A stretch of DNA of 64,000 nt from Caldisericum exile AZM16c01 (lineage in GTDB: Bacteria > Caldisericota > Caldisericia > Caldisericales > Caldisericaceae): the NCBI RefSeq assembly GCF_000284335.1, contig NC_017096.1:1488001-1552000 (forward strand), read 5' to 3'. The notes beneath the pieces are model-generated. The model saw nothing but the letters and a program-made list of their open reading frames with translations. It searched no databases and was not told the origin of the DNA. Shown here piece after piece: positions 37,699 to 49,697 of this stretch; position 1 is the stretch's first letter; every line of letters begins with the position of its first letter. A program made the position numbers and the translations under genes.

Positions 37699-37713
37699 GA
37701 GTTGGAGGAAAAT

Positions 37714-40700
37714 ATGGAAACAATTTCAACAATTTACAAAAATCTTTGTCCAAACTGCGGAAATGACATTACAGACGATAGATTAAAATTAGGGCTTACA
37801 TGTGAGGCATGCTTGGATAGGATTGTCCCAAAAGAACAAATCTGTAACTATCTTAAAATAGAGCAGTTTAAATCCTTTTGCAACCTGAGAGAGCATCTAT
37901 CTAAATTCAAAAATACATTTAAAAACACAACCGGCTTTAACTTATCTTCCCTTCAAGAAATGTGGGCAATAAGATTTTTTCTCGACAACTCCTTTGCTCT
38001 TATTGCGGAAACTGGTATTGGAAAAACTACATTCGGGCTTACACTTTCAAAGTACATCTCGGAAAACAACATCGGCTTTGTGTATCTTATCTTCCCAACA
38101 AACATTCTTGTAAAACAAGCAAAAGAAAAATTGTTAAAATTTGGGATTGCCGAAAATGAGATTATCGCATATGATTCAAATCTTCCAAAAAATACGCTTG
38201 AACTTCTAAAATATCGGATTCAAGAAGGCGATTTCAAGATACTTATAACAACTACAAATTTCCTTTACAAAAACTTTGATATGGTGCCAAAGGGTCTTTA
38301 CTCGCTTGTATTTATTGACGATGTTGATTCAATTTTAAAAAATTCAAAAAATATAGATAAGGTGCTTAAACTTCTGAACTTTAACGATGAAGACATTGAG
38401 AAGGCGCTTAAACTTATTGACCTAAAAAGGCTCTCTCTTAAAAATAAGGTTGACCAGGAGACACTTCAAAGTGTCATTGAAGATGTTAATAAAATTAAAG
38501 CAAAGCGAAAAGGTGTCTTGATTGTTTCATCTGCGACAACAAACCCAAAGTCAAAAAAGGTACTCCTTTTTAGGGAACTTCTCAACTTCGAAGTAGGACG
38601 GGTTGTCTCAACGTTGCGAAAAGTTGTTGATACTTATAAAATTGTTGAAGGCGACCTTTTTTCCGAGGCGCTTTCAGAAATTAAAAAACTTGGCAAAGGT
38701 GGACTTATATTCCTTAATACAGATTACACAAAGGAAGACCTTGAAAATTTCGTGCACTTCCTCAATAAAAACGGCGTAAAGGCTCTCTCATATGAACATC
38801 TCACAAAGGTTTTAGAAGATTTTAAGCAGGGTAGTCTTGATGTACTTGTTGGATTTTCTACATACAGAAATCCACTTGCAAGAGGGATTGACCTTCCTTC
38901 CGTTATAAGGTATGCACTCTTTGTGGGTGTGCCTAAGATAAAATTTTCGCTTAGTGCAACCGAAGGGAATAGAGGATTATACTATGCAATTTTGATGCTT
39001 GCACCACATATTACAAGGAAGAAAATACTTAAAGACTCAGAAGTTGCAAAAATCTATAGATACTTAAATATCCTCAAAAGATACTCAAATGTTATTGAAG
39101 AAAGTGGTGATAATCCATATCAAAAAGCATATGCTGAAGCAGTAAATTATTTTAAGGAACTTTTTAAAAGAGAGGATATTGTAAAAATCATCGAAGAGAC
39201 ACCTGATATTGCACTGCAAAGAAAGGGAAATGAACTTTCATTTGTGGTTGTAGATACCACAGGCTACATTCAGGCATCTGGTCGAACTTCCCGCCTCATT
39301 GCAACGGGTCTTACAAAAGGACTTTCTCTTATTTTAACTAATGATCTAAAGGCACTATTGGTTTTAGGGAAAAAACTCAAGTGGTTCATTGAAGACGCTC
39401 TCTTGTTACCATATGAAACAGTTAACATTGAAAGTATCCTCAAAGAAATTGACGATGACCGAGCACTTGTACGTAAAATTGAAAGTGGATTTCTTACTGA
39501 TGTAGAACCAAAATTTGACACAAAACTTGTGATTGTTGAATCCCCAAATAAGGCACGAACAATTGCATCCTTCTATGGTAAACCCATAAGAAGACGTATT
39601 GGAAATCTTGACGCATTTGAGATCATCATGAAAGATACAATCCTCACAATTGCTGCATCAAAGGGACATATTTTAGATCTAAACAAAACGGAGGGGTATT
39701 TTGGCGTTTTGAAGAGAGATGGAATATTTATTCCGCTTTTTGAGCCAATTGACGAAGACAAAGAAAATATTCTTAAATCCTTAAGAAGATTATCTTTAGA
39801 AGTTAATGAGGTTTTACTTGCTTCCGATCCAGACACAGAAGGAGAAAAGATAAGTTATGATTTATGGCTTAACCTTTCTCCTTATGCAAACCACATAAAG
39901 CGCATTGAGTTTCACGAGGTTACAAAGCATGCTTTTGAAGATGCGATAAAGAATCCGAGAAACTTAAATATTAACCTTGTTAAGGCACAGTTTTTAAGAA
40001 GAATTGCAGACAGATTTGTAGGCTTTACAGTTTCGCAATACATCCAAAAGGAAAAGGGACTTAAAACTCTTTCAGCAGGAAGAGTGCAAACACCTGTTCT
40101 TGAGTGGATTGTAAATCGTGGCATTGAGGCATCAAAAAAGAACCCATATTTAAGAGTATTTTTTAGTTCAAAAACGGTTGAGTTTAAACTCGAAAGCACT
40201 CTAAACAAAGAAGAAATCGATAAAGTTAAGACAATCTATGTGAAAATCCTCGATCGACACAAAGAAAATTTATTTGTTAAGCCGTTTGAAACATACACAC
40301 TTTTAAAGGAGGCATCAAACAAATTAAAACTCCCATCCTTTACAATAATGCAACTTGCACAAGACCTCTTTGAGATGGGATTAATCACCTATCACAGGAC
40401 TGATAGTATTAAGGTGAGTGAGACAGGTGTGCGTATTGCAAAAGAGTATATCGAAGAAAATTTCGGGAGTGAATTTGTAAAAATCAGAATGCATTCACAA
40501 ACCCAAGGCGCACATGAGTGCATTCGACCAACAAAAGCAATGGATGTTGAAGAATTAAAATCATATCTTACAATAAACCCAATTTTAGGTATTACGCCAA
40601 TGCATCTTAAACTCTATGACCTTATATTTAGGCAATTTATTGCATCTCAAATGAAGGACACTGTTGTTGAAGGCGGTAAAGTTTTGTACTCTTTAAATAT

Positions 40701-41193
40701 AGGAAGTCTCACCCTTCAAAAAGAGGAAGAGGTAAATATTGGAATTGTAGAAGAGGGTTTCAATAAAATTCACCCTGTTGAAATTTATCCAGTCTCAGAA
40801 GGGATTATTCCAATTGAAAACAAACTTCTTATAAGAAAAAGTGATGTGCCTTTTTATACGCATGCAACAATAATTGAAGAAATGGAGAAGAAAGGCATCG
40901 GAAGGCCATCAACTTATGCAATCACAATTGAAAAACTCATTGCAAGAAAATATGTTATTGATAAAAAGGGTTTTTTAATCCCTACAAAACTTGGTGCTGA
41001 GATTGTAAATCTCATAAAGAAAAATATGAAAATTTCACCATTTGTAAGTGAAGGATACACAAAAGAACTTGAACAAAAGATGGATAAAATAGAACAAGGT
41101 AGCGGGGATTACAACAAAGAGATAGAAAAGATTTTCAACGATCTTCAACTTGAAAAATTGAAAGAATTTTTGAGTCTATCGATTGAAGATTAA
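37714..41193 (+). CDS. rgy: reverse gyrase
   Basis: A 1,159-aa fusion of an SF2 helicase-like domain and a type IA topoisomerase that introduces positive supercoils, a hallmark of thermophiles. It has an N-terminal zinc finger (Cys12, Cys15, Cys30, Cys33), Walker A GIGKT (101-105), a DDVD box (202-205) and helicase motif VI-like QASGRTSRL. The topoisomerase half has TOPRIM Glu609 (VIVESPNKA), DPDTEGE near 705-711 and catalytic Tyr893 (LITYHRTDS). The second zinc finger expected between TOPRIM motifs is absent: no cysteine occurs there. ATG at 37714 is preferred to TTG at 37702 because GGAGG is correctly placed. Confidence 0.97.
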   Translation: METISTIYKNLCPNCGNDITDDRLKLGLTCEACLDRIVPKEQICNYLKIEQFKSFCNLREHLSKFKNTFKNTTGFNLSSLQEMWAIRFFLDNSFALIAETGIGKTTFGLTLSKYISENNIGFVYLIFPTNILVKQAKEKLLKFGIAENEIIAYDSNLPKNTLELLKYRIQEGDFKILITTTNFLYKNFDMVPKGLYSLVFIDDVDSILKNSKNIDKVLKLLNFNDEDIEKALKLIDLKRLSLKNKVDQETLQSVIEDVNKIKAKRKGVLIVSSATTNPKSKKVLLFRELLNFEVGRVVSTLRKVVDTYKIVEGDLFSEALSEIKKLGKGGLIFLNTDYTKEDLENFVHFLNKNGVKALSYEHLTKVLEDFKQGSLDVLVGFSTYRNPLARGIDLPSVIRYALFVGVPKIKFSLSATEGNRGLYYAILMLAPHITRKKILKDSEVAKIYRYLNILKRYSNVIEESGDNPYQKAYAEAVNYFKELFKREDIVKIIEETPDIALQRKGNELSFVVVDTTGYIQASGRTSRLIATGLTKGLSLILTNDLKALLVLGKKLKWFIEDALLLPYETVNIESILKEIDDDRALVRKIESGFLTDVEPKFDTKLVIVESPNKARTIASFYGKPIRRRIGNLDAFEIIMKDTILTIAASKGHILDLNKTEGYFGVLKRDGIFIPLFEPIDEDKENILKSLRRLSLEVNEVLLASDPDTEGEKISYDLWLNLSPYANHIKRIEFHEVTKHAFEDAIKNPRNLNINLVKAQFLRRIADRFVGFTVSQYIQKEKGLKTLSAGRVQTPVLEWIVNRGIEASKKNPYLRVFFSSKTVEFKLESTLNKEEIDKVKTIYVKILDRHKENLFVKPFETYTLLKEASNKLKLPSFTIMQLAQDLFEMGLITYHRTDSIKVSETGVRIAKEYIEENFGSEFVKIRMHSQTQGAHECIRPTKAMDVEELKSYLTINPILGITPMHLKLYDLIFRQFIASQMKDTVVEGGKVLYSLNIGSLTLQKEEEVNIGIVEEGFNKIHPVEIYPVSEGIIPIENKLLIRKSDVPFYTHATIIEEMEKKGIGRPSTYAITIEKLIARKYVIDKKGFLIPTKLGAEIVNLIKKNMKISPFVSEGYTKELEQKMDKIEQGSGDYNKEIEKIFNDLQLEKLKEFLSLSIED

Positions 41194-43033: not shown

Positions 43034-44021
43034 AGAGGATATTCTTCAAAAGGATATTAGAGTTTCCATTGGAAGCCTTGCACTCCTTGGGTTAAAAGAT
43101 GTAAAAGTTTTTGCAAAGCCAACAACAATTTACCTTATGGTTGAAGAGCGTTGCATGTTTAATTGCCTTTACTGTGCGCAGGCAAGGGAATCAAATGCAA
43201 ATCTCGAAAACCTATCAAGGGTAACTTGGCCAAAAGAAACATTTAAAAATGTGCTTGATGCATTAATAAAACACAAAGATGATTACAGGCGTATTTGCTT
43301 TCAAGTTGTAAATGGAAGAAACTATTACGAAGACCTTGTTCAATTTTTAAAAGTTCTCAAAGTTTCGCAAATAAATGTGCCAATATCAATTTCGATAAGA
43401 GAAACAAACATAAACCGCATAAGAGAAATGTTTTCCCTTGGGGTTGAGCGTATTGGTCTTCCTATTGATGTTGTATCAAAGGAACACTTCTCAAAAATTC
43501 GTGGAGGAAATTTTGAAAGCACATTCTCTTTTATTATAGATACGGCAAGGGAATTCAAAGGGAAAATTACAACACACATCATCGTCGGACTTAACGAGAC
43601 CGATTTTGAATTGTATGATGCGATGGAAAAGTTTTTTCACAATAATGTGCTTGTGTCATTATTTGCTTTCACGCCAATTAAAGGGACACCTTTCGAAAGT
43701 CATCCGAAAGTCCCAATAGGGCGATATCGGAAATTTCAATTCGTAAGAGCACTATTCTTTAAACACATTCCCTTCGAGCCAATTTTTGAAAGTGGCGAAC
43801 TTTCAGGAGTTAAAATCGATGCACCAAAAGAGAAAATTCTTGAACTTATAAGCGATCCTTCAAACTATATTACTCAGGGATGTCCAAACTGTAATAGACC
43901 TTTTTACAATGAAACTCCAGCGGGGCCATTATATAATTTCCCCACAAAACCCAGCGATACAAGTTTTGTTTTTAAGGACTTTGTAAAAGTTGTTTTTGAT
44001 GGAAAAGTCGAATTCAACTGA
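43011..44021 (+). CDS. radical-SAM protein, biotin-synthase-like (possible LipS subunit)
   Basis: A 336-aa radical-SAM enzyme with the cluster motif CMFNCLYC (in EERCMFNCLYCAQARES) and a C-terminal CPNC pair followed by NRPFYNETPAG, which could bind a second iron-sulfur cluster. A sacrificial auxiliary cluster is needed for sulfur insertion, so this is consistent with a lipoyl synthase-type reaction. Start has GAGG and overlaps the upstream radical-SAM gene. The 3' end overlaps the HD protein. Neither a lipoate acceptor nor a ligase is in the window. Confidence 0.75.
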   Translation: MSVVPLYKEDILQKDIRVSIGSLALLGLKDVKVFAKPTTIYLMVEERCMFNCLYCAQARESNANLENLSRVTWPKETFKNVLDALIKHKDDYRRICFQVVNGRNYYEDLVQFLKVLKVSQINVPISISIRETNINRIREMFSLGVERIGLPIDVVSKEHFSKIRGGNFESTFSFIIDTAREFKGKITTHIIVGLNETDFELYDAMEKFFHNNVLVSLFAFTPIKGTPFESHPKVPIGRYRKFQFVRALFFKHIPFEPIFESGELSGVKIDAPKEKILELISDPSNYITQGCPNCNRPFYNETPAGPLYNFPTKPSDTSFVFKDFVKVVFDGKVEFN

Positions 44022-45501
44022 TAGTAATCCCTTTAGGGATTTAATACTTCTTCTTGAAGTTTCCGTCTACCTTCATGACATTGGAAAACTTTCAAGATAC
44101 TTTATCTCATCTAAGGCAAAAGGCATAAAAGGGCTTGATTATCACGGACAAATTCTCTATATCGATTTTGCACTCAATAGGGTGCCCGATAACCTTTTAC
44201 GGTTTTTAAATAGCGAAGTGTATAAAATTCTTCAAATTGATCCACAAAGTGCGCCATTTGAAATAGATTTTTCTTTAATTCATATGATCTGTGCCCATCA
44301 TGGGTGTAATAGATGTTTAAGGAACCCTCCGTGCAAGCTCAAAGATAAAATTGAAGACTACAAAATTATGGAACTTCTTAAAACCCTTGACCATATGGAT
44401 GCTTCAAACCCACTTGATTCAGGAAAACAGGGTTATAAAGAGGTATTCATTGATAGATTTTTTGAAAATCCAAAGAAGGTTGAAATCGAAAAACTCGATT
44501 CATTAAGGATTGAGTTTTATGAGAAACTTGACTCTGCACTTTTAGAAGAAGGATTTGGAAGTAAGAATTTCAATATTAAAAATTTCCGAAGAAAAGTTTT
44601 AGAGTATTCCAAAGAGCCATTTTTAAAAGCACTTTCTGAAACAAGGCTTTTTGCAAATGACATAACGCTATTTGATCATTCACTTGCAACTGCAACCCTT
44701 TTTAAGATGTACCTCAGCGCATACTTTAATTTTCATATATCTCTTCCAAAGACTTTTTCGGAAGTAAATTATGTATTTATCAAATCTTATTCGGCCAACC
44801 CATCCTTAATTGAAGAGGATCTCGCATTTTCAAACGTGATTATTAAAAATAGCAATTACATCATATTTCCATTTCCAAATCTTTTAAGCAAAAAAATTAA
44901 GAATATCCTTAAAGAACTCATCGGAGATTTTGATGTGATAAAAGACCCATACGACCTTTTTCCACAATACAAAGAGTATCTGTTGTCCTTGAAGGTAAAA
45001 AATATTGAAGAAATAAAAGAAGGCTACACCTACAAAAAGGCAATTGAGGATGTTAAAAGGGTAATTTACTTTGCACTTCTAAAAGAAAAAGAGAATCTTG
45101 CTCAGAAACACAAGAGTTTTACAAGGCATATAAGAAATGTATCAAATGGTATAACAAAAGACAGGATAAACTTTGTAAAATTCCTAAAAAAACTTGTAGA
45201 ATTAAAACGCCTTAAAAAACACCTTGATGCAGAGCCTTCAATTGAAAATATACGAAGTTTTCTTAAAGTATGCTCCTCAAATGAAATAGAGCCTCAAATT
45301 GAAGAATACTTCGACCTCATAACTTCCCCTATTCGTCCACCATCACCAATAGAGATGTCAAAGATGTTTTTGAAATACTATAGAAAAACACACTCATACA
45401 AAAAGGTGCTTAATCGCTTTGTTATCATAAGACCATTGACCCTTGGAAGATTAATCGCATTTAACCGCCTTATCCAGGACAAGCAAACAGCAACACATTA
45501 A
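43999..45501 (+). CDS. orphan Cas10-like HD-domain protein
   Basis: A 500-aa protein whose first 140 residues form an HD phosphohydrolase unit: His26-Asp27 (LHDIGK), His49 (YHG), His95, His100-His101 (CAHHG) and Asp131 (TLDHMDAS). A small cysteine group (Cys98, 103, 106 and 112) lies inside it. NDITLFDHSLATATLFK (220-236) is the segment that follows the HD domain in Cas10 (Csm1/Cmr2) proteins, and NYIIFPFPNLLSKKIKN looks like the first palm domain. The palm's GGDD is missing and no other cas gene or array is present. It overlaps the radical-SAM gene by 23 bp. ATG at 43999 is preferred to TTG at 43990. Confidence 0.7.
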   Translation: MEKSNSTDSNPFRDLILLLEVSVYLHDIGKLSRYFISSKAKGIKGLDYHGQILYIDFALNRVPDNLLRFLNSEVYKILQIDPQSAPFEIDFSLIHMICAHHGCNRCLRNPPCKLKDKIEDYKIMELLKTLDHMDASNPLDSGKQGYKEVFIDRFFENPKKVEIEKLDSLRIEFYEKLDSALLEEGFGSKNFNIKNFRRKVLEYSKEPFLKALSETRLFANDITLFDHSLATATLFKMYLSAYFNFHISLPKTFSEVNYVFIKSYSANPSLIEEDLAFSNVIIKNSNYIIFPFPNLLSKKIKNILKELIGDFDVIKDPYDLFPQYKEYLLSLKVKNIEEIKEGYTYKKAIEDVKRVIYFALLKEKENLAQKHKSFTRHIRNVSNGITKDRINFVKFLKKLVELKRLKKHLDAEPSIENIRSFLKVCSSNEIEPQIEEYFDLITSPIRPPSPIEMSKMFLKYYRKTHSYKKVLNRFVIIRPLTLGRLIAFNRLIQDKQTATH

Positions 45502-45520
45502 AAATGATCACCTTAAAATT

Positions 45521-45603
45521 GTCCTTCCAAGAAGGATAAAAATAGTCATATTTGTCCTTTTAAAAAGGATAAATCTGTGATAAAATATCCTTGTAGGAGG
45601 GAT
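45521..45603 (+). promoter_or_regulatory. three 17-bp palindromes spaced exactly 33 bp
   Basis: Sites at 45521-45537, 45554-45570 and 45587-45603 fit RTCCTT-N5-ARGGAT with a 33-bp period, about three helical turns. The third contains the AGGAGG ribosome site and ends three bases before the ATG of the ATPase gene. A possible -10 (TAAAAT, 45581-45586) lies between sites 2 and 3. A repressor binding cooperatively is the simplest reading; the same arms could also form short RNA hairpins. Confidence 0.85.
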
Positions 45604-45605
45604 AA

Positions 45606-46883
45606 ATGAATACAGAAACCCTAAAAGAAGTGATTTATACAAACGAGCAATACATAAAAAAGTGGAAAGGAAAAATTATTGAAAGAGAAAATATCGTATT
45701 CCCAAAATCCATTGAAAAGGCAATAATTTTGTATGGCGTAAGAAGAAGCGGAAAGACTTTTATTCTTTTCAACCAATTCTTGAAACATGTTGATAAAGCA
45801 ATCTATATAGATTTTGAAGACGATAGGCTCAATAACTTTAGAATGGAGGATTTCGAAAAGTTAAAGAGTGCAGCAATCGAATTAAAACCACACTTAGGAA
45901 GTGAAAAAATCCACTATTATCTTGATGAAATTCAAAATGTTAAGGGTTTTGAAAAATTTGTAAGAAGAGTTGTAGAAAGAGAAAATGCATCGGTAATTGT
46001 AAGCGGGTCATTGTCAAAGATAAGACCTGAACAGATATCTACAACTCTTAGAGGTAGATCTTGGAGTATTGAAATATTACCGTTTTCTTTTAGAGAGTAT
46101 TTAAAAACACAATCCATCGATTTCGAAAATATTATCCTTATACCGGAGCAAAGAGCGATTCTAAAAAGAAGTTTTCGTGAATTCATTGCATGGGGAGGAT
46201 TTCCAGAGGTTATACTTGCAAAAAACGAGTTTGAAAAGAAAAAAATCCTAAAAGAGTATTTTAATGCAATGTTCTTTAAAGACCTTGTTGAAAAATATGA
46301 AATGACAAACATAACACTTTTGGAATTACTTCTTGATAAATTGTTTTCCTCATATTCAACAAGGCTATCTTTAACTTCTATATACAAGCAATACAAAGAT
46401 AAGATGCCTTTGTCGAAAGATTCTTTATATGACTATTATAAGAAGATCCTCGAAAGCATGCTAATTTTCGAGGTAAGAAAATTTTCTGAATCATCGTATA
46501 AGCGGGCAAGAAACCCTGCAAAAATATACCTTGTTGATGTTGGACTTGCAAAGGATACTACTTCGCAAAATATTGGAAAAAGAATGGAAAATGTTGTATT
46601 TATTGAATTAAAAAGAAGGGGATATGACCTTTATTACTTTGATGAAAAAAGGGAATGCGACTTTATAGCTGTAAAAGATAAAGAATTAACACCAATTCAG
46701 GTGACATATGAAATAAACGATACAAATAGGGAAAGAGAAATCGAGGGGATAGTTGAAGCATGCAAATTTTTAGGAGTTAAAAAGGGTTTAATCATAACCT
46801 ACGATGAGGAAGAAACATTTGAGATTCATGACATTGAAGTAGAAATTATTCCAATTTATAAGTGGTTAATTAGCCTGCGATAA
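45606..46883 (+). CDS. AAA_14 / DUF4143 ATPase
   Basis: A 425-aa P-loop ATPase. Walker A is GVRRSGKT, Walker B-like HYYLDEIQN and a sensor-like SGSLSKI follow, then the DUF4143 C-terminal domain ([12 protein letters not shown] and [10 protein letters not shown], a PD-(D/E)XK-like core). The family is widespread and often duplicated in thermophiles; its biological role is unsettled, with defence or chromosome functions proposed. It has three palindromes directly upstream and ends 18 bp inside the convergent uvrA gene. Confidence 0.87.
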
Positions 46884-49697
46884 AACCTTTTTGAGGTATT
46901 GCCCTGTGTAGGATCTGGGGTTATTTGCAATTTCTTCAGGAGTGCCAGTTGCAACAACATATCCTCCACGCTCGCCACCCTCAGGACCAAGGTCGATAAT
47001 ATAATCTGCAGATTTTATAACATCAAGATTGTGCTCAATTATAATAACCGTATTCCCTTGATTAACAAGCCTTTGAAGGACATCAATGAGTTTATGAACA
47101 TCTGCAAAATGCAAGCCAGTTGTAGGTTCATCAAGAAAGTAAACGGTTCTTCCGGTGCCTCTTTTTTGAAGTTCTGCTGCAAGTTTTACACGTTGCGCTT
47201 CACCCCCTGATAGTGTTGTTGCTGACTGTCCTAATTTTATATACCCTAACCCTACATCGTCAAGGAACTGTAATTTTCGTTTTATTTCAGGGATATTTTC
47301 AAAGAAGGATAGTGCTTCTTTTACGCTCATTTCAAGCACATCTGCTATACTTTTCCCCTTGTATTTTATTTCAAGGGTTTCTCTGTTATATCGCTTTCCG
47401 TGACACACTTCGCATGGCACATATACATCAGGTAAGAATTGCATTTCAACTTTTATGTAGCCGTTCCCTTCACATGCTTCACATCTTCCACCTGGCACGT
47501 TAAAACTAAACCTCCCAGCCTTATAACCCCTTGCCTTTGACTCAGGCAAACTTGCAAAAAGTTCTCTTATTGGAGTAAATACACCTGTGTAAGTTGCAGG
47601 ATTCGAGCGAGGCGTTCTTCCAATAGGAGATTGATCAACCATTACAACTTTATCGATATATTCAATACCTTCAATTTTATCGTATTTTCCCGGCTCTTCC
47701 TTTGACTTGTAGAGTTTTTTCATAAGAGCCTTGTAAAGGATATCGTAAATGAGTGTTGATTTTCCAGAGCCAGATACACCTGTAACGCAAATAAATGTAT
47801 GAAGTGGAAATTGGACATCGATATTTTTGAGGTTATGTTCCCGTGCACCTTTTACAACAAGAAATTCACCGTTTCCTTTTCTTCGCTCACTTGGGACAGG
47901 AATCTTTAATTCACCTTTAAGGTACTGCCCCGTTAGGGAGCGCTTTTCATTTATTATATCTTGAAGAGAACCTGTTTTTACAACATAGCCACCCTCTTCA
48001 CCTGCGTAAGGGCCAATATCAATAATATAATCTGCCTCCCTTATCGTCTCTTCGTCGTGTTCAACGACAATCACTGTATTGCCAAGATCCCTTAATTCTT
48101 TTAAGGTATTGAGGAGTTTATCAGTATCCCTTGGGTGAAGCCCAATCGATGGCTCATCAAGGACATATAATACGCCAACAAGTTTTGAACCAACCTGTGT
48201 TGCAAGGCGAATCCTTTGTGCCTCACCTCCTGCAAGTGTTTCAGATGGTCTATCCAACGTTAAATACGAAAGCCCCACATCAAGTAAAAATTTGAGTCTG
48301 TTCTTAATTTCCTTTATAATTTGGTGTGATATCATCCGCTCTTTTTCGGTTAGTTTCTTCTCTAAATTTATAAAAAACCTATACGCGTGCCCAACGGACA
48401 TACTCGTTAAATCGGCAATATTTATTCCATCTACCGTAATTGCAAGGGCTTCACTCCTAAGCCTTTTTCCATGGCAAACAGGACACTCAACTCGCCTCAT
48501 AAACTTTTCGTACTCCTCTTTCATATTTTCAGATTCGGTCTCGTTATAGCGCCTCTTAAGAAGATTTACTATCCCTTCAAAATATGTTGAGAAACTGTAA
48601 ACTTCACCATTTTTAGATGTGACCTTTACGGGAGTTTTACCTTCAGTTCCATAGAAAATGATGTCAAGTTCTTCTTTTGAAAGTTCTTTTAAGGGTTTGT
48701 AGGTATCAATTCCGTATCTTCTTGCAACTTGCAAAAGGATCTGAAAGGTGTATGTATCAAAACCCCTAAAACCTGGAATTTGAATTGCGCCTTCTTCAAG
48801 ACTTAAATTCCAATCACGCACAATGAGGTCTGGATCTGGTTCAATTTTAAAGCCGAGCCCAGAGCATTCAGGACATGCTCCATATGGTGAATTAAACGAA
48901 AATAAACGTGGTTCAATTTCCTCGATTGAAAACCCGCACACAGGACATGCAAATTTCGAAGAGTAGATATACTCCATTCCATCTTCGTCCCTAACCTTTA
49001 CAACGTATACGCCTTCTTCAAGTGCAAGTTCAATTGAATCTTCTATGCGACTCTTCTCGTCAGTAACCACAACAACCCTATCCACAACAAGGTCAATATC
49101 GTGTTTTTTATTCTTATCAAGGGGGATTTCTTCTTGAAGGGAATACATATTCCCGTCGACACGCACCCTCACATATCCCTTTTTGAGGTATTTTTCAAAG
49201 AGAGCCTTGTATTCGCCTTTCCTTCCCCTTACAAGAGGTGCAAGGATTTCGATTTTTTTGTGCGCAAGGTTTTTAAATATCTGTTCAACAATTTCATCAG
49301 GTGTTTGTTTTTTTATCTCTGTGCCGTCATTTGGACAATGAGGAACACCAATGCGCGCATAGAGAAGCCTTAAATAATCGTAAATTTCAGTCATTGTGCC
49401 AACAGTTGATCGGGGATTTTTGCTTGCACTCTTTTGATCAATTGCAATCGCAGGAGAAAGCCCATCAATCACATCAACATCGGGTTTTTCCATAAGGCCT
49501 ATAAATTGCCTTGCGTATGCAGAAAGCGACTCAACATAGCGCCTCTGTCCTTCTGCATAGATTGTGTCAAAAGCAAGAGATGATTTACCTGAGCCTGAAA
49601 CACCTGTTATTACAACAAGTTTATTTCGGGGGATTGTGAGGGTGATATTTTTAAGATTATGGACCCTTGCCCCTTTTATAAAGATATCATCTCTCAT
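46866..49697 (-). CDS. uvrA: excinuclease ABC subunit A
   Basis: A 943-aa UvrA, the damage-recognition ATPase of nucleotide excision repair. Two ABC ATPase modules are present with Walker A motifs [10 protein letters not shown] and [10 protein letters not shown]. The signatures are [13 protein letters not shown] and [13 protein letters not shown], and the Walker B motifs are [11 protein letters not shown] and [11 protein letters not shown]. Zinc fingers appear as CPVCG/CPECSG and [17 protein letters not shown]. The start at 49697 ([17 protein letters not shown]) matches other UvrA proteins; an upstream in-frame ATG would add ten unrelated residues. It overlaps the upstream membrane protein gene by 11 bp. 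Confidence 0.97.

Follow-up and report, generated by a model that had tools for sequence, protein, structure and literature searches.

Immediately before a gene for an ATPase with AAA_14 and DUF4143 domains, the window (the whole 64,000-nucleotide stretch of Caldisericum exile DNA analysed here) contains three evenly spaced palindromes. Which protein would read these sites, and what it would do to the gene that follows them, is the question raised by this locus, and we addressed it through the array itself, the encoded protein and the upstream DNA of related genes in bacteria and archaea.

The array and the ATPase gene of C. exile

The sites and a promoter-like match near them are as follows.

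45521–45537, forward strand: predicted operator copy 1, GTCCTTCCAAGAAGGAT (sequence reading and shuffle test)
45554–45570, forward strand: predicted operator copy 2, GTCCTTTTAAAAAGGAT (sequence reading and shuffle test)
45587–45603, forward strand: predicted operator copy 3, ATCCTTGTAGGAGGGAT, with the ribosome site AGGAGG (sequence reading and shuffle test)
45559–45586, forward strand: TTTAAA-16-TAAAAT, lying between copies 2 and 3 and weakly promoter-like (9/12)

The palindromes at 45521, 45554 and 45587 match RTCCTT-N5-ARGGAT exactly and follow one another in steps of 33 and 33 bp, with dyad centres at 45529, 45562 and 45595; extended outward, the palindrome is about TTTRTCCTT-N5-AAGGATAAA. 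The window contained three exact matches, compared with a mean of 0.02 and a maximum of 1 in 100 dinucleotide shuffles. The 33-bp spacing claimed in a preliminary description of this DNA was confirmed. The array sits in a 104-bp gap between the stop codon of the upstream gene (45499–45501) and the ATG of the ATPase gene at 45606, with 2 nt between the end of copy 3 and this ATG, and the overlap of the last site with the ribosome site, also claimed previously, was borne out by the AGGAGG within copy 3. The siting of the operators along a single face of the DNA, ahead of a gene for a DUF4143 ATPase, was likewise supported, by the 33-bp steps and by the Pfam assignments given below. The promoter-like match in the window was at chance level, being equalled by 94/200 shuffles, and an Rfam search of positions 45300–47000 gave no match.

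The whole genome of 1,558,103 bases contained four exact forward matches, the window triple and one other (at 297108), so that the search for the same 17-mer proposed in the preliminary description led only to one further exact match, within a coding frame. When up to one mismatch was allowed, 31+37 matches were found, compared with 25+19 for a reversed control pattern; single degenerate sites elsewhere in the genome are at about chance level, and only the window triple exceeds it. A genome-wide regulon for these sites was therefore rejected, as the matches elsewhere with at most one mismatch were about as many as those of the control. A further pair at 350947 and 351046, 99 bp apart, also lies within coding frames, and the frames holding this pair and the match at 297108 resemble, by eye, an ABC transporter and a sugar isomerase.

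Two other genes of the window were noted. The upstream gene (43990–45501, forward strand) had no Pfam match and is HD-domain-like, with below-cut-off matches to CRISPR-associated Csx11 (3.6e-14) and the Cas3 HD domain, and a 1163-aa frame at 37702–41193 (forward strand) resembles reverse gyrase (helicase plus topoisomerase) by eye.

The ATPase gene and the domains of its product were assigned as follows.

45606–46883, forward strand: AAA_14/DUF4143 ATPase gene, 425 aa, PADLOC PDC-S01 (Pfam and PADLOC models)
45717–46103, forward strand: AAA_14 ATPase domain, residues 38–166, Walker A GVRRSGKT (Pfam and structure model)
46287–46505, forward strand: winged helix-turn-helix (wHTH), residues 228–300, predicted operator reader (structure model and structural matches)
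46416–46454, forward strand: third helix of the wHTH, residues 271–283, predicted recognition helix (structure model)
46494–46871, forward strand: C-terminal nuclease-like domain, PD-(D/E)XK-type after excerpts of PMC12988326, residues 297–422 (alignment and model)

The protein, which we take to belong to COG1373, matched AAA_14 (2e-30, 105.9 bits against a cut-off of 27) and DUF4143 (8.7e-14, 52 bits against a cut-off of 28.1) in Pfam, its C-terminus belonging to DUF4143; an NCBIfam search gave no match. It also matched seven models of PDC-S01, a candidate single-gene defence ATPase of PADLOC, the best of which (PDLC04787, 3.6e-93) covered residues 23–422, nearly the whole protein. In the structure model (pLDDT 90.3, pTM 0.90, 19 sequences), a winged helix lies between the ATPase and nuclease-like domains, with helices at residues 236–248, 256–263 and 271–283 and a strand at 287–292. 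Folded alone, the wHTH reached a pLDDT of 81 and most resembled winged-helix regulators, Fur and PerR among them, at Z about 7; Foldseek with the wHTH alone returned E-values >0.5, so that taken singly this resemblance is weak. The Foldseek matches of the whole model were AAA proteins with low TM-scores and were set aside as having background value only, and a sequence-based search for a solved DUF4143 structure found none.

The catalytic motif of PD-(D/E)XK nucleases consists of D and (E/Q)xK. E328, D352 and Q365 of the nuclease-like domain were invariant in all 19 aligned rows (the window protein and 18 relatives), so that the D and Q of this motif are present in the window protein and the lysine is not. 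Because the ExK lysine is missing in 19/19 rows of the window subclade, where T, C and other residues replace it, the nuclease-like domain of this subclade may not cut DNA. Bacteroidota relatives retain EVK in this domain.

Spacing across the family and the placement of promoters

To place the array in its family, we retained 113 AAA_14/DUF4143 genes of bacteria and archaea from 144 frames, after dropping three duplicate window loci, frames with no Walker motif near the start or with fewer than 150 bases upstream, and repeated proteins; the loci (L numbers below; genomes have G numbers) were the best-scoring matches of each search and not a random sample. In the DNA upstream of each gene, we sought the highest-scoring pair of palindromes with similar sequences, allowing any spacing between 18 and 60 bp. 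The best pair was spaced by 33 bp in 24 genes, 32 bp in 13, 34 bp in 4, 22 bp in 9 and 23 bp in 5, and shuffled sequences gave a flat distribution. Spacings of 32–34 bp were thus found upstream of 41/113 genes, compared with 486/6780 shuffles (7.2%; p 7e-19), 12/113 inside genes, 12/109 downstream and 10/127 before neighbour genes; of the five neighbour genes with high scores, four were themselves close to a family gene. When a single gene was kept for every cluster at 40% identity, 18/49 genes retained this spacing (p 3e-9). The peak at 21–23 bp was weak in this first set (15/113, p 0.03; neighbour genes 14/127). Additionally, a direct-repeat scan that made no demand for palindromes returned 33 bp 24 times, 32 bp 18 times and 22 bp 10 times among the 113 genes, with about 2.5 expected for each.

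We then added genes from two phyla, those of G056 (L041, titled Actinomycetota bacterium) and G057 (L042, titled Thermoplasmatales archaeon), keeping 54 new genes of 62; the loci of G056 and G057 themselves were already in the first set. Of these 54, 13 were spaced by 21–23 bp and 16 by 32–34 bp, or 29/54 compared with about 8 expected (p 3e-11). The phylum of G056 favoured 21–23 bp (11/27), with 32–34 bp in only 3/27, which was not significant, and the phylum of G057 favoured 32–34 bp (13/27). Among the strongest arrays (score at least 35; 44 of the 167 pooled genes), 41 were at 22–23 or 32–34 bp, and these spacings are two and three turns of DNA. The arrays, read in part in 59 loci kept of 61, had two to four operator copies (four in L158 and L179, three in L040), and in 40 loci the median distance from the end of the last copy to the nearest start was 9 nt. 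By strict criteria an array was present in 42 to 45 of the 113 genes; the remaining genes may carry diverged, single or other signals.

Several observations were made at the margins of this set. A second ATPase gene of the C. exile genome (L008, G000:C1:29914-31149) carries a GACCA/GTCCA repeat with copies about 41 bp apart, as do L020 and L041; this repeat is unrelated to the window operator and possibly represents a four-turn class, the 41-bp spacing being apparent by eye in L008 and L020 and, in L020, also in the direct-repeat scan. One archaeal contig (L039, 1–7221) has five AAA_14/DUF4143 genes in a row, the C-terminal ends of which are nearly alike and look as if they had been exchanged among them, and G959, a genome of 1.5 Mb from the same phylum as G057, has 32 DUF4143 matches. 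Ten plasmid genes were examined singly and a clear array was found in one (L216). TT_RS11170 on pTT27, presumably the same gene as TT_P0211, was rejected as a supporting case, as it had two differing palindromes by eye and no like pair. According to excerpts of a study in Thermus thermophilus, RNA of TT_P0211 (AAA_14, DUF4143) was up 6.6-fold when a plasmid and Argonaute were both present (PMC4406477).

Conservation upstream of orthologues was a point on which the preliminary description had staked its reading, and the nearest relatives of the window ATPase (60–68% identical) bore it out: the window operator sequence was present twice, 33 bp apart, before L010, L011 and L029 (the last an N-terminal fragment), as well as before L013, while L012 begins at a contig end and so lacks upstream DNA. 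In L010 and L011, TTGACA lies within the first operator copy and TATAAT abuts the second, with a 17-bp gap, forming a perfect sigma-70 promoter that was equalled in 0/200 shuffles; in the window, the equivalent of the copy bearing the -35 element is copy 2 and that of the copy abutting the -10 element is copy 3. L029 has TTGACG and TATAAT at the equivalent places, and a predicted promoter overlapped the operators in 8 of the 12 bacterial loci with a good array that made up the promoter test set.

Two loci of the same genus, each in a genome of its own, are broken. In L013 (G011:C77), the 5' half of the gene is missing and two operators persist; in L032 (G009:C44), six stops interrupt the matched frame and the operators, by eye, have decayed. 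From these broken copies, gene and operators seem to be kept and lost jointly, to live and die together. A toxic or conditional function, which the preliminary description had suggested for the ATPase, would fit both these broken copies and the listing of the family as a defence candidate.

These results bear on two other explanations of the arrays. They might act as RNA, with leader hairpins hiding the ribosome site or binding a protein: the 116-nt leader of the window folds at -35.7 kcal/mol (z -6.5 compared with shuffles), and copy 3 contains the ribosome site. However, good folding is expected of any tandem palindromes, a spacing of two or three helical turns has no rationale in RNA, the arrays of L179 and L170 resemble direct repeats of the same spacing without strong palindromes, and the promoter within the array of L010, L011 and L029 means that the first copy would be untranscribed. 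We regard this explanation as very unlikely for the arrays in general, although for the window leader on its own, given its strong folding, hairpins of the kind that the preliminary description named as a refutation may play a part.

Arrays of two to four repeats at 22 or 33 bp also resemble plasmid iterons, and the ATPase could serve a mobile element in initiation or in partition, with the iteron- or centromere-like array as its origin or anchoring site and autoregulation as a secondary effect. This would agree with structural matches that include archaeal Orc/Cdc6 proteins (1w5t, Z 11.8; 2qby, Z 10.6) and with the plasmid location of some copies (237 plasmid records had a match), but it is hard to reconcile with arrays tight at the start codon, with the promoters inside them in close orthologues and with the frames around the window ATPase gene, among which no replication gene was seen. 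An origin or anchoring role is hardly probable in our view.

Covariation of operators with the winged helix

Each ATPase clade had an operator sequence of its own. In the archaeal genome G055, five paralogues carried five different operators (L040, ATCCATAG...; L054, ATTACTAT...; L060, TCGATTATAATCGA; L065, TTATATCAC...; L069, ATCATTC...), and a sixth, L074, had no clear array. Therefore, no single host repressor can account for G055.

We compared operator similarity with the identity of each protein domain, the other two domains being partialled out, in 26 of 30 Bacteroidota and 25 of 29 Halobacteriota loci (repeat score at least 15, one extra frame excluded), with operator units sought only at each clade's own spacing. 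The partial correlation with the wHTH was 0.428 in Bacteroidota (reached in 0/500 permutations) and 0.286 in Halobacteriota (2/500). The corresponding values were 0.037 (157/500) and 0.128 (70/500) for the ATPase domain, and 0.059 (98/500) and 0.044 (173/500) for the nuclease-like domain. A 30-residue sliding window peaked in Bacteroidota at the recognition helix and wing (0.526) and rose a second time, to no more than 0.37, in the nuclease-like domain. The Halobacteriota profile was diffuse: its maximum of 0.327 took in the beginning of the wHTH and the residues preceding it, away from the recognition helix, and in this clade the recognition segment by itself gave no significant correlation (0.124, 77/500). 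Among 37 far-diverged loci no domain stood out (0.235 for the wHTH and 0.260 for the ATPase domain); the wHTH was the least alike of the three domains in these loci (0.23 vs 0.29 and 0.27).

Furthermore, one subfamily spans three phyla (L097, L099 and L100; L239 and L242; L276) and carries the operator TTACTCA-N6-TGAGTAA, or a close form of it, at 22-bp spacing before the start. Its members share 66–88% identity in the wHTH, 45–67% in the ATPase domain and 39–59% in the nuclease-like domain, with the wHTH highest in 15/15 pairs, and it appears to be the clearest natural experiment on operator reading in these data. Whereas the preliminary description had called for an unknown repressor, the covariation and this subfamily point to the ATPase's own wHTH as the reader of the operator.

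A separate host repressor that binds the operators and controls the ATPase would agree with the bare sequence, which is silent on the binder, and such regulators might be encoded elsewhere. It would not explain why the clade-private operators covary with the wHTH of the ATPase itself, it would require five host repressors for the five G055 paralogues, and in the C. exile genome (G000) there is no further exact site outside coding sequence; we consider a host repressor quite unlikely.

Predicted self-repression and related switches

We propose, with a probability of roughly 0.8, that the window palindromes are operators controlling the ATPase gene downstream, bound by its own product for negative autoregulation. 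The best reading of these sequences is that a single polypeptide would serve as its own repressor, the putative repressor being the ATPase itself. Protein dimers would bind each palindrome, and as the copies are two or three turns apart on one DNA face, adjacent dimers could touch and bind together. Because the ribosome site and, judging from close orthologues, probably the promoter lie within the array, the bound protein would be expected to block RNA polymerase. Negative autoregulation of this kind would hold down the level of a defence-like ATPase, one that moves horizontally and may be harmful, until the promoter was freed, perhaps by a change in nucleotide state, by titration by incoming DNA or by entry into a fresh genome that lacks the protein. 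The steps computed here were the array, the spacing rule, the position, the clade-private sequence, the covariation with the protein's own wHTH and the promoter within the array of close orthologues. Sequence alone cannot tell repression from activation, and cooperative self-repression is the most economical mechanism.

Negative autoregulation through palindromes that overlap a promoter is familiar from toxin-antitoxin systems and from the control of restriction-modification systems, where a dedicated antitoxin or control protein binds. Here, in contrast, one polypeptide has ATPase, DNA-binding and nuclease-like domains. A search of titles and abstracts in open PMC, outside which lie preprints and most subscription journals, returned no literature on operators before DUF4143/AAA_14 genes.

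The closest solved structures are the archaeal AAA+ ATPases PABY2304 (2qen; Z 16.2, rmsd 4.4 over 274 residues) and SSO1545 (2fna; Z 15.9, rmsd 4.2 over 277 residues; sequence-profile match 1.1e-5), which are 14–15% identical to the window protein and match it only to near residue 320, leaving the nuclease-like domain uncovered. The STAND/NLR switches RPP1 and CED-4 align with the ATPase and winged-helix core at Z about 13–15, and the alignment with 2qen, RPP1 and CED-4 over residues about 15–320 comprises an AAA/NACHT-like core followed by a winged helix, the arrangement of STAND NTPases. The nSTAND Pfam models matched L060 below their cut-offs only. Among STAND-like regulators, we compared IniR and MalT; IniR is described as binding DNA through a distinct domain at its C-terminus, whereas here the wHTH of the core itself appears to read DNA, and the target would be the protein's own gene.

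In NLRs, CED-4 and Orc/Cdc6, the wHTH moves with the nucleotide state. As a tentative extension of self-repression, to which we give clearly less than even odds, the ATPase might be a minimal NLR-like switch whose winged helix doubles as a repressor with sequence specificity. At rest, in the ADP state, the wHTH would hold the operators and the gene would be silent; a nucleotide-driven swing of the wHTH, of the kind that activates STAND proteins, would also free the promoter, making activation and a burst of synthesis a single event.

PDC-S01 is, in excerpts of a 2026 study, the fourth most common defence across prokaryotes and consists of ATPase domains fused to PD-(D/E)-X-K members; it is a candidate defence there, validation being pending for most PDCs (PMC12988326). 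The same excerpts leave operators and regulation unmentioned in their account of PDC-S01, whereas the window gene and its family show predicted operator arrays. PDC-S01 is among the most frequent putative defence genes, yet without a mechanism. Were every member to repress its own gene, each genome would provide a ready assay: the operator array would name the DNA ligand and the promoter would report the state of the protein, and any factor that releases the promoter would indicate the signal perceived by the ATPase. Being phased and clade-private, the arrays offer many natural protein-DNA pairs for decoding wHTH specificity, as well as a means of finding and grouping such genes from the DNA upstream of them. 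Self-repression would also unite an NLR-like ATPase core with transcriptional self-control within one polypeptide. The NLR-like switch, if true, would apply to a candidate defence gene that ranks among the most widespread in bacteria and archaea.
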